A stretch of DNA of 45,768 bases. Source: an uncultured Eubacteriales bacterium (lineage in GTDB: Bacteria > Bacillota > Clostridia > Lachnospirales > Lachnospiraceae). The notes under the pieces are model-generated. The model ran no database searches. It saw nothing but the letters and a program-made list of their open reading frames with translations, and was not told the origin of the DNA. Positions 29,121 to 45,418 of the stretch are shown here, one piece after another (within the stretch, counting starts at the first letter, position 1; the number at the start of each line of letters is the position of its first letter). Location of the stretch: positions 1 to 45,768 of the forward strand of contig CASFID010000054.1 in the NCBI GenBank assembly GCA_949294665.1. Reading direction: 5' to 3'. The translations under genes and the position numbers were made by a program.

Positions 29121-29149
29121 AATATAGCAATAATTATTAGCACTGTCAA
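29121..29149 (-). promoter_or_regulatory. Sigma-A promoter of clpB
   Basis: On the minus strand, consensus TTGACA (29144-29149), a 17-base spacer and TATATT (29121-29126). The -35 box lies inside the CIRCE element. Confidence 0.88.
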
Positions 29150-29163
29150 GAGTCGAGTGCTAA
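29137..29163. promoter_or_regulatory. CIRCE element (HrcA operator) before clpB
   Basis: TTAGCACTG, nine bases, then GAGTGCTAA. This matches the CIRCE consensus TTAGCACTC-N9-GAGTGCTAA at 17 of 18 positions. HrcA binding here would cover the clpB -35 box and release it on heat shock. The 378-base gap between clpB and the next gene otherwise holds the divergent promoter regions of both. Confidence 0.92.
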
Positions 29164-29268: not shown

Positions 29269-29358
29269 TTGAACTTACAGACAAAGTTGAACTTTTAATA
29301 TTATATTGAACTTTTCCCATATTTATGGTATAGTATCACCAGTCTATATTGAACTTTT
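29269..29358 (+). promoter_or_regulatory. Four TTGAACTT direct repeats before the Cro/C1-aminotransferase gene
   Basis: Copies begin at 29269, 29287, 29306 and 29349; the last three extend to TTGAACTTTT. The first three are 18-19 bases apart, close to two helix turns. Copy three coincides with the -35 box and copy four lies just after the expected transcription start, an arrangement that suggests autoregulation. Confidence 0.7.
29306..29334 (+). promoter_or_regulatory. Sigma-A promoter of the Cro/C1-aminotransferase gene
   Basis: TTGAAC (29306-29311), a 17-base spacer and TATAGT (29329-29334). Confidence 0.75.
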
Positions 29359-29388: not shown

Positions 29389-30885
29389 ATGTCTAGAGAA
29401 ATTTTCGCAGAGCGCCTTAGAGTTTCTATGGCGCAGCAGGGTAAAAAGCAGGTAGATCTGATCCGTGCAGCTTCTGAACACGGTGTCAAGCTGGGGAAAA
29501 GCCACATCAGCCAGTATGTAAGCGGCAAGACTCTTCCAAGACCTGATATCCTGCATTTTCTCGCAGATACGCTTCAGGTAGATGCCGACTGGCTGCGGGG
29601 CGGCGATTCAGGCAACGGCATCCACACAGTTCATACAACTAATACTGTTACGGGGGACAGAAAAATGAGAACTTTTAAAAAATCTTCAAAACTCGACAAT
29701 GTCTTATACGATGTAAGGGGACCGGTTGTCGATGAAGCTGCACGGATGGAAGAATCCGGCACGCAGATCCTGAAATTGAACATCGGCAATCCCGCTCCGT
29801 TCGGTTTCCGCACACCGGACGAAGTCATCTACGATATGCGGCAGCAATTGACGGAATGTGAGGGCTATTCCAACGCGCAGGGTCTTTTTTCTGCAAGAAA
29901 AGCGATCATGCAGTACGCACAGCTGAAAGGCATCCCGAATATCGCAATCGAGGACATCTACACCGGAAACGGTGTCAGCGAACTGATCAACATCTGTATG
30001 TCAGCGCTGCTGGATGACGGGGATGAGATCCTGATTCCCTCTCCGGATTATCCGCTGTGGACCGCCTGCGCGACGCTTGCCGGCGGAGAAGCCGTACATT
30101 ATATTTGTGATGAACAGTCGGAATGGTATCCGGATATTGACGACATCCGCAGAAAGATCACCGACCGGACGAAAGCCATTGTTATCATCAACCCGAACAA
30201 CCCGACCGGAGCGCTGTATCCGAAAGAAGTGCTTCAGAAGATCGTCGATGTGGCGAGAGAACATCAGCTTATCATCTTTTCCGATGAGATTTATGACCGG
30301 CTGGTAATGGATGATGAAGAACACGTTTCCATTGCTTCCCTTGCGCCGGATCTCTTCTGCATCACCTTCAGCGGTCTGTCCAAGTCACATATGATCGCGG
30401 GATTCCGCATCGGCTGGATGATCTTAAGCGGGAATAAGAAAGTCGCAAAAGATTACATCGAAGGGCTGAAAATGCTCTCAAATATGCGGCTCTGCTCCAA
30501 CGTACCGGCGCAGTCCATCGTCCAGACAGCGCTGGGCGGGCACCAGAGCGTCAGAGAATATGTTGAACCGGGCGGACGTATCCGAGAACAGAGAGATTAC
30601 ATTTACAAGACTCTGACCGACATCCCCGGTATCAGCGCGGTAAAGCCGAAAGCTGCCTTTTACCTGTTCCCGAAAATGGATGTGAAGAAGTTCAATATCA
30701 CAGACGACGAGCAGTTCGCCCTTGATCTGCTCCGGGATAAAAAGATTCTCCTGATCCACGGCGGCGGCTTCAACTGGAAACAGCCGGATCACTTCCGGGT
30801 TGTCTATCTGCCCCGGATCGAGGTGCTCAAAGAGGCAACGGGAAAGATTGCTGATTTCTTCAGTTACTATAAACAGCAGTTGTAA
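29389..30885 (+). CDS. Cro/C1-type HTH domain fused to AlaA-type aminotransferase
   Basis: A 498-residue fusion. Residues 1-75 form a Cro/C1 (XRE) helix-turn-helix, with KKQVDLIRAA, KLGKSHISQYVSGKTLPRP and LQVDADWLRGG. A short linker leads to a full PLP-dependent class I aminotransferase (93-498) closely resembling E. coli AlaA (glutamate-pyruvate transaminase): LNIGNPAPFGF, GNGVSELI, PDYPLWTA, NPNNPTGA, SDEIYDRL, and the PLP Lys332 in SGLSKSHMIAGFR. All visible catalytic residues are kept, so it should be an active enzyme. GAGGAG precedes the start. An internal ATG at 29665 with GGGGGA seven bases upstream matches the natural AlaA start and could yield the enzyme without the DNA-binding part. 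Confidence 0.9.
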   Translation: MSREIFAERLRVSMAQQGKKQVDLIRAASEHGVKLGKSHISQYVSGKTLPRPDILHFLADTLQVDADWLRGGDSGNGIHTVHTTNTVTGDRKMRTFKKSSKLDNVLYDVRGPVVDEAARMEESGTQILKLNIGNPAPFGFRTPDEVIYDMRQQLTECEGYSNAQGLFSARKAIMQYAQLKGIPNIAIEDIYTGNGVSELINICMSALLDDGDEILIPSPDYPLWTACATLAGGEAVHYICDEQSEWYPDIDDIRRKITDRTKAIVIINPNNPTGALYPKEVLQKIVDVAREHQLIIFSDEIYDRLVMDDEEHVSIASLAPDLFCITFSGLSKSHMIAGFRIGWMILSGNKKVAKDYIEGLKMLSNMRLCSNVPAQSIVQTALGGHQSVREYVEPGGRIREQRDYIYKTLTDIPGISAVKPKAAFYLFPKMDVKKFNITDDEQFALDLLRDKKILLIHGGGFNWKQPDHFRVVYLPRIEVLKEATGKIADFFSYYKQQL

Positions 30886-30902: not shown

Positions 30903-30947
30903 AGAAAAGGTCTGTTACACCGTTAAGCGGTATGGCAGACCTTTTCT
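30903..30947 (+). terminator. Terminator between convergent aminotransferase and gatB
   Basis: A perfect 12-bp stem (30903-30914 with 30936-30947) with an inner ACCG/CGGT pairing and a T-rich right arm. The symmetric layout could stop transcription from both sides. Confidence 0.85.
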
Positions 30948-44142: not shown

Positions 44143-45345
44143 CTAGAACAGTCCGTCAAACCGCTCCATTGCTTCTCTGGTCTTTTCGTGCGTGCCAAAT
44201 GACGTCAGGCGGAAGTAATTCTTCCCGTTTACGCCAAAGCCCGCGCCCGGCGTGCCGACCACCTGGATATTCTCCAGCAGGTAGTCAAAAAGTTCCCATG
44301 ACTCCATATCGTCCGGACATTTGAACCAGATGTACGGCGAGTTCACGCCGCCTGTAAAGGAGATTCCTTTCTTTCTGAGAGTCTCCGCGATCACGCGGGC
44401 GTTTTCCATATAATAGGAAATATTCTCCATGCATTCCTTCATGCCTTCTTCCGAGAACACCTTCTCTGCCGCGCGCTGGATGATATACGGCGTACCGTTG
44501 AACTTGGTGGACTGTCGTCTGTTCCACATATCATGCAGGCTCATCTGTCCGCCGTTCGAGGAGGTGAACACCAGCTCTTTGGGAACTACGGTATAAGAGA
44601 ATCTCGTGCCTGTAAATCCTGCTGTCTTCGACAGGGAGCCGAACTCAATGGCACATCTCTTTGCTCCTTCTACCGCATAGATGCTGCGAGGCAGTTCGGG
44701 TTCTGACACAAACGCCTCATAAGCCGCGTCAAAAAGGATCACCGCCTCATTTGCAAGCGCATAGTCCACCCATGCTTTCAACTGCTCTTTGTTATAGCAT
44801 GCACCGGTCGGGTTATTGGGAGAACACAGGTATATGATATCTGCCTTTACGCTGTCGTCAGGCATCGGCAGGAAATCATTTTCCTCTGTTCCGTTCATAT
44901 AGATGATCTGTTTCCCGTCCATCGTATTCGTGTCAACATACACCGGATATACGGGATCGGGGACCAGTATCACATTGTCTTTTGCAAAGAGCTCCGTGAT
45001 ATTTCCCGTATCACTCTTTGCTCCGTCGGAGATGAATATGTCATTCTCGTCGACAGAGACGTTGTTTCTCTTATAATAGTCCGAGACGGCCCTGCGCACG
45101 AATTCATATCCCTGCTCCGGTCCGTATCCCCTGAACGTTTCAGATGAGGTCTGCTCGTCGACCGCTTCGTGAAGAGCCTCCACAGCGCTCTTCGTGAGCG
45201 GGCGGGTTACGTCTCCGATCCCCAGACGGATGATATTTCCTGCTTTATCAGGATGCTCTTCCTCATAGACTTTCACACGGCGGGCAATCTCTGCAAAGAG
45301 ATAGCTGTCCTGTACGTTCAGATAGTTTTCATTTAATCTTGGCAT
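44143..45345 (-). CDS. dapL: LL-diaminopimelate aminotransferase
   Basis: Converts tetrahydrodipicolinate directly to LL-diaminopimelate with glutamate as amino donor, for lysine and peptidoglycan synthesis. The 400-residue PLP enzyme starts with the family pattern MPRLNENYLNVQDSYLF and has LGIGDVTRPL, YGPEQGYEFVR, DPVYPVYVDTN, SPNNPTGA and the PLP-binding Lys in FGSLSKTAGFTGTRFSY near 250. The start at 45345 has AAAGGAAG upstream; a longer frame to 45417 lies in the structured leader. Terminator at 44060-44111. The two DapA-like genes in the sugar locus are not its partners by context. Confidence 0.95.
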   Translation of the reverse strand: MPRLNENYLNVQDSYLFAEIARRVKVYEEEHPDKAGNIIRLGIGDVTRPLTKSAVEALHEAVDEQTSSETFRGYGPEQGYEFVRRAVSDYYKRNNVSVDENDIFISDGAKSDTGNITELFAKDNVILVPDPVYPVYVDTNTMDGKQIIYMNGTEENDFLPMPDDSVKADIIYLCSPNNPTGACYNKEQLKAWVDYALANEAVILFDAAYEAFVSEPELPRSIYAVEGAKRCAIEFGSLSKTAGFTGTRFSYTVVPKELVFTSSNGGQMSLHDMWNRRQSTKFNGTPYIIQRAAEKVFSEEGMKECMENISYYMENARVIAETLRKKGISFTGGVNSPYIWFKCPDDMESWELFDYLLENIQVVGTPGAGFGVNGKNYFRLTSFGTHEKTREAMERFDGLF

Positions 45346-45418
45346 CTTTATCTTCCTTTCCACTTCATATGGTCCGGCGTCTTCCCGTTGTGCGGCCGGT
45401 CCCTGTATCAGCATCACA

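Follow-up and report, generated by a model that had tools for sequence, protein, structure and literature searches.

A Cro/C1-type helix-turn-helix domain fused to an AlaA-like aminotransferase: a candidate self-repressing enzyme with a second, internal start

The window, i.e. the whole stretch of 45,768 nucleotides under analysis, contains on its forward strand an uninterrupted reading frame (29389-30885, without internal stops) that encodes a Cro/C1-type helix-turn-helix (HTH) domain followed by a variable linker and an AlaA-like aminotransferase. The elements of the gene and of its promoter region, where four copies of TTGAACTT lie in the same orientation, are the following.

29269..29276, + strand, operator-like box 1, TTGAACTT
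29287..29294, + strand, operator-like box 2, TTGAACTT
29306..29313, + strand, operator-like box 3, TTGAACTT, the first six bases of which form the -35 element
29329..29334, + strand, -10 element TATAGT, 17 nt after TTGAAC
29349..29356, + strand, operator-like box 4, TTGAACTT, between the -10 element and the start codon
29374..29379, + strand, Shine-Dalgarno sequence GAGGAG of the full-length start, as read from the sequence
29389..30885, + strand, coding sequence of the HTH-AlaA fusion, 498 residues
29389..29601, + strand, Cro/C1-type HTH domain, residues 1-71, five helices with pLDDT values of approximately 82-92 in the model
29488..29541, + strand, recognition region K34-R51, KLGKSHISQYVSGKTLPR, from the alignment
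29602..29664, + strand, variable linker, residues 72-92, from the alignment (low model confidence from residue 74)
29652..29656, + strand, internal GGGGG resembling a Shine-Dalgarno sequence, 8 nt ahead of the internal ATG (duplex, -8.6 kcal/mol)
29665..29667, + strand, internal ATG (Met93), at the place where standalone AlaA begins
29665..30882, + strand, AlaA-like aminotransferase, residues 93-498, the predicted second product

The continuous frame and the Pfam matches bear out the domain pair of the preliminary description, in which a Cro/C1 HTH was seen joined to a near-standard AlaA. Aminotran_1_2 is recognized at residues 126-475 (E 4e-57), HTH_31 at residues 6-67 (E 5.4e-5; 23.8 bits, below the cut-off of 27) and HTH_3 at residues 35-69 (E 7.3e-5; 23.2 bits, cut-off 23). 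The HTH is weak by Pfam but clear by comparison with solved structures, the closest being the chains of the CI repressor from the lactococcal phage TP901-1 (E 5.5e-8, residues 7-73). Structure prediction gave a good model of the HTH and a poor one of the enzyme part (mean pLDDT, 58.9; TM, 0.33 to 4cvq), so that for the latter the alignment with the sequence of the crystal structure, rather than the model, was relied upon.

Among solved structures, the enzyme part comes closest to E. coli AlaA (4cvq; E 1.1e-174, residues 81-496), which aligns over 416 residues without gaps and with an offset of 92 in the numbering. The residues named in PMC4094517 for PLP, substrate and catalysis in AlaA (Tyr15, Arg18, Tyr68, Tyr129, Asn179, Asp207, Tyr210, Lys240, Tyr333 and Arg378) correspond to Y107, R110, Y160, Y221, N271, D299, Y302, K332, Y425 and R470 of the window. 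All ten are invariant in 94/94 distinct fused proteins. The intact Lys332 and PLP motifs of the preliminary description are confirmed, and the PLP and substrate residues named in PMC4094517 are common to the fusion and to E. coli AlaA, which has no HTH. Four neighbours of the AlaA pocket differ in the fusion (Ile17, Ile213, Ile276 and Leu332 are replaced by Val109, Leu305, Leu368 and Phe424), and standalone relatives share these Val, Leu, Leu and Phe residues in 23, 33, 34 and 34, respectively, of 34 rows. From its sequence, nothing marks the aminotransferase domain as a degenerate sensor. The best-scoring NCBIfam family is alanine aminotransferase NF006230, yet with 377.6 bits against a cut-off of 534. 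By homology and by its catalytic and substrate residues the domain is an AlaA, and it would be expected to carry out alanine/glutamate transamination.

Relatives were collected by scanning genome contigs (453 relatives, best 80 kept), and all of the best 80 are fused, with a match that extends from residue 6 or before to residue 492 or beyond. The search for the domain pair across the family, as proposed with the preliminary description, found the fusion in 20 of 200 genomes, the own one included (18 as judged from the start of the match; G157 and G058 from full frames), and a standalone AlaA-like gene (approximately 50% identity or more) in 35 of 200, G028 having both kinds. At the level of the class, 34 of 291 genomes, again including the own one, have a relative that reaches E 1e-90 or lower, and four more fused genes were found here, in other families; the enzyme part of one of them (L160) is identical to that of L090. 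Judging from the record titles, Blautia wexlerae, Coprococcus comes and Fusicatenibacter saccharivorans are among the carriers. The whole fusion is also present, with 71-77% identity, in three short records from human faeces entitled Bacteriophage sp. (MT839381.1, MT839198.1 and MT838394.1), which may be bacterial DNA or may reflect a gene travelling with phages. Two Eisenbergiella metagenome-assembled genomes each contain two different fused copies on separate contigs (L032/L038 and L043/L048), from either gene duplication or mixed assemblies.

The tree comprised 77 rows, 43 of them standalone and 34 fused (the latter thinned from 98), and the fused proteins sit within a background of standalone enzymes. 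When the fused rows were constrained to form one clade together with the nested standalone rows L115, L158 and L116 (the first two being one gene of genome G176, the third from G001), the likelihood was above that of the free quick tree (p-AU 0.82), while a clade of the fused rows alone gave a p-AU of 0.0525. These values are compatible with, but do not prove, a single fusion event and a later loss of the head by G176 and G001. A separate HTH gene next to standalone alaA was sought by tblastn (E up to 1) without a match; this covered 34 standalone loci, with flanks that for the most part measured some 1 to 1.5 kb per side.

The boxes of the promoter region go with the fusion. Within up to 300 nt upstream, 92 of 94 distinct fused genes have a forward box, and 81 of 94 have two or more; the total of 272 forward copies compares with a mean of 2.17 and a maximum of 8 in first-order shuffles of the 94 upstream regions, although these counts are taken over related genes and carry no P value. 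The four further fused genes have at least one box each, whereas no box in either direction was found at the 34 standalone rows (33 genes) or at nine further standalone genes of the class. A single forward box is found in 11 of 94 fused upstream regions, in some of them more than 200 nt from the start, and two of the 94 have no forward box, namely L119, which has no box at all, and L091, with three reversed copies. Box-to-box distances show a periodicity of 10.4 bp (R 0.44 against a mean of 0.10 and a maximum of 0.18 in 500 random placements), as expected with proteins sitting on one face of the helix. TANNNT lies exactly 17 nt past a TTGAAC in 77 of 94 regions (next best of the tested distances, 5-39 nt, 31). 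The promoter-like site of the window proves little by itself, since the 1,951 bases scanned for such sites contain five of them where 2.5 would be expected.

The kinship of the head with TP901-1 CI, which was derived from the protein as the box was from the DNA, leads to the same motif. The recognition helices of CI (KLSKSTLSQYVNS) and of the window (KLGKSHISQYVSG) are nearly identical, and the helix of the fusion is of CI type (KLSKSTLSQYV against KLGKSHISQYV); K37, S38, S41, Q42, Y43, G46, P50 and R51 are invariant in 94/94 fused proteins. The half-site consensus of CI is given as AGTTCAYR (PMC8516035), and the operator oligonucleotide described in PMC4941734 has AGTTCA at its beginning and TGAACT at its end; TGAACT, the CI half-site, is the core of TTGAACTT, and is found upstream in 92 of 94 fused versus 4 of 43 standalone rows. 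The HTH would, therefore, be expected to bind TTGAACTT, since nearly the same helix is found in CI, whose half-site is the core of the box. Of the two positions altered in the crystallized CI variant Q45A/N48A (PMC4941734), Gln45 aligns with Gln42 of the window (94/94) and Asn48 with Ser45 (Ser in 77, Asn in 12). TP901-1 CI acts on inverted half-sites and has an oligomerization domain of its own, whereas the fusion has mostly direct boxes (inverted CI-like pairs in only 7 of 94 fused upstream regions) and the enzyme as partner of the HTH.

Control of the gene's upstream region by its own protein, as predicted from sequence, is strongly supported by the operator-like boxes, the matching recognition helix and the absence of the box where the head is absent or has been lost, as in G176 and G001, nested in the fused clade. 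A phylogenetic paired test comprised only two pairs, with significance out of reach. As to the preliminary proposal of an enzyme that senses its substrates or PLP and controls genes according to turnover, the boxes and the helix lend support to control of the upstream region of the fusion, whereas sensing of alanine, glutamate, pyruvate or PLP is conjectural.

Targets elsewhere in the genome were sought as exact box pairs with 5-35 nt between them. The host genome (3.59 Mb, 95.9% complete) contains three, all at the fusion promoter (control pattern, 0 matches). The 20 fused genomes of the family contain 31 exact pairs, of which 27 directly precede the fused gene, and 12 of the 20 have an exact pair of this kind; the remaining four correspond to 0.20 per genome, as compared with 42 pairs, or 0.23 per genome, in the 180 genomes without the fusion, by a tally made by eye from the match lists. 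Inverted pairs of the full box were absent from the host genome (control, 2), and within approximately 4 kb around each of the box pairs that in G038 and G176 are not near any fused gene no similar HTH was found. Neither was a conserved operon partner: of the 55 loci with complete flanks, no more than 9 share even the commonest neighbour groups. With exact pairs elsewhere at background level and neighbours not conserved, the likely target, as judged from such pairs, is the fusion gene itself. A wider regulon was not seen among paired sites, relaxed TTGAACT pairs adding three places in the genome versus two matches of the control pattern; single or weaker sites may occur elsewhere.

The second conserved feature is the internal start at Met93. 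Over the 94 genes, the mean Shine-Dalgarno pairing at this position is -9.29 kcal/mol, to be compared with -8.19 for the full-length starts, -7.80 for the starts of standalone genes and -2.97 for 1142 other ATGs inside these same genes. Methionine occupies the Met93 column in 86 of 94 fused proteins and, when shifts are allowed, an in-frame ATG is present near the junction in 91 of 94, with a Shine-Dalgarno pairing of -7 or better in 89 of 94; L090 has a GTG after GGGGG at this place. In four genes (L032, L034, L043 and L066) the ATG is shifted by codons and the Shine-Dalgarno sequence is shifted along with it, and G176, which has lost the head, retains GGAGG and ATG, 13 nt apart. The Shine-Dalgarno sequence is read in differing frames (GGAGG in frame 0 in 53 genes and in frame 2 in 5, as well as 13 genes with GGGGG in frame 2) within a variable linker, so that the bases, rather than a Gly-Gly pair, seem to be kept. 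Glycine codons account for part of the signal, as found by synonymous resampling (-6.84 versus -9.59 observed in the 86 rows with Met). By these sequence features, the gene probably also yields an HTH-free AlaA.

The internal start is absent in L068 and L086, L113 is without its Shine-Dalgarno sequence and L163 without both elements; in all four the twelve enzyme residues that were checked are intact, as though the fused form, too, had enzyme activity. L068 (Blautia sp. MSJ-9) and L086 (B. wexlerae), which keep the fusion and the enzyme residues without an internal ATG, have one forward box approximately 160 nt upstream, and offer a natural contrast for the idea of two starts.

Taken as a whole, the reading that we consider probable is that of one gene encoding a self-repressing, DNA-binding transaminase together with a free transaminase from the second start. 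The full-length protein would recognize the direct repeats of TTGAACTT in its own promoter through its TP901-1 CI-type head, with one HTH per box, and the AlaA dimer (E. coli AlaA is a dimer) would pair the HTHs, holding together boxes on one face of the DNA. Binding would block transcription, since one box forms the -35 element and the others flank the promoter, and the gene would thus repress itself. From the internal Shine-Dalgarno sequence and ATG, free AlaA would be made that supplies enzyme activity and, by forming mixed dimers, dilutes the HTHs, so that a dimer has fewer heads on average. We infer from sequence each of these steps: binding and repression, catalysis, the second product and the mixed dimers. 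More tentatively, and with some doubt on our side, the grip on the promoter may be set by the mix of the two enzyme forms in the dimers and by the PLP/PMP or substrate state, so that turnover would gate the enzyme's own synthesis.

Other explanations were weighed against the self-repressing enzyme with two products. The aminotransferase domain might, as in MocR regulators, mainly be a sensor of PLP or amino acids that switches DNA binding, with catalysis being secondary. The layout, and the direct-repeat operators that PMC5320631 describes for many MocR regulators, agree with such a sensor, but we hold it to be unlikely: the checked active-site residues are invariant in 94/94 proteins, the conserved internal start would yield the enzyme alone, the own genome has no other AlaA-like gene above 32% identity among the matches listed, and no further exact paired targets are present in the host genome. 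It is also conceivable, though improbable in our judgement, that the internal start is left over from two formerly separate genes and that the fused protein is the sole product. Met93 is indeed where standalone AlaA starts, as would be left by a simple fusion through loss of a stop, and L068, L086 and L163 manage without it; however, the surrounding linker varies in sequence and length, yet the Shine-Dalgarno sequence persists in differing frames, and it moves with the ATG where this is shifted by codons.

That the HTH is vestigial and no longer binds DNA, or that the boxes are bound by another protein, is given very little credence. The HTH_31 score below the Pfam cut-off would agree with a vestige, but the recognition residues are invariant (94/94), the boxes accompany the fusion and not standalone alaA among the genes parsed, and CI, a studied relative with nearly the same helix, is described as binding the same core. 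For a sequencing or assembly error that joined two genes, which the preliminary description had named as a way in which its reading could fail, nothing speaks in favour, and the chance is negligible: it is ruled out by the 94 distinct fused proteins, which come from many independent assemblies, isolates included.

Among known systems, the fusion is closest in layout to the MocR/GabR subfamily (GabR, PdxR and TauR), in which an N-terminal HTH is followed by a linker and a fold-type-I aminotransferase-like domain, and the direct boxes recall the direct repeats of many MocR operators (PMC5320631). The HTH of MocR is of GntR type, whereas that of the fusion is of Cro/C1 type and TP901-1 CI-like, with no GntR model found by Pfam at E 0.001; the fusion also differs in its intact enzyme residues and near-standard AlaA, in its conserved internal start and in having its own promoter as the only paired target found. 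The comparison with MocR made at the outset is, therefore, fair as an analogy and does not extend to the GntR domain: for lack of the latter the fusion is MocR-like or trigger-enzyme-like in its working, and not a MocR. That description had missed the box array, the kinship with phage CI and the conserved internal start, and also that exact paired targets occur nowhere else in the host genome.

In PutA and BirA, described in PMC6978683 as trigger enzymes, an enzyme also represses transcription. The fusion would resemble them as a repressing enzyme, here probably of its own transcription, and both halves of such a status, enzyme and control, are supported by sequence; it differs from them in enzyme class and DNA-binding head, and in the conserved internal start for the enzyme alone. 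In the Rpn genes within genes (RpnL/RpnS) the C-terminal part is also made alone (PMC10327210); there, the short form is described as an antitoxin, whereas that of the fusion would be a complete enzyme. A description of an XRE-aminotransferase fusion was not found among the titles and abstract openings of the open-access papers that the searches listed. It looks as if common gut bacteria had arrived independently at the MocR layout, using another HTH and keeping the enzyme intact. The operator is clear, the contact has a structural template and headless close relatives provide a natural comparison, so that the system lets one test whether a working enzyme can report its level or turnover to its own promoter. 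From the conserved internal start one may see how a single gene could serve as regulator and enzyme without all of the enzyme being bound to a head.

The surroundings of the gene present a few further elements. The inverted repeat TTAGCACT...GAGTGCTAA (29137-29163; 1 mismatch, 0.01 expected) precedes a minus-strand clpB-like gene and overlaps its promoter-like site. The repeat is CIRCE-like, so that control of clpB by HrcA is likely. A further aminotransferase of class I/II, different in kind from that of the fusion, is encoded at 44143-45417 on the minus strand (Aminotran_1_2, E 5.5e-40). Directly 3' of the fusion gene lies the inverted repeat AAAAGGTCTG...CAGACCTTTT (30905-30945), found by eye, which probably terminates transcription of both this gene and the convergent gatB-like gene.
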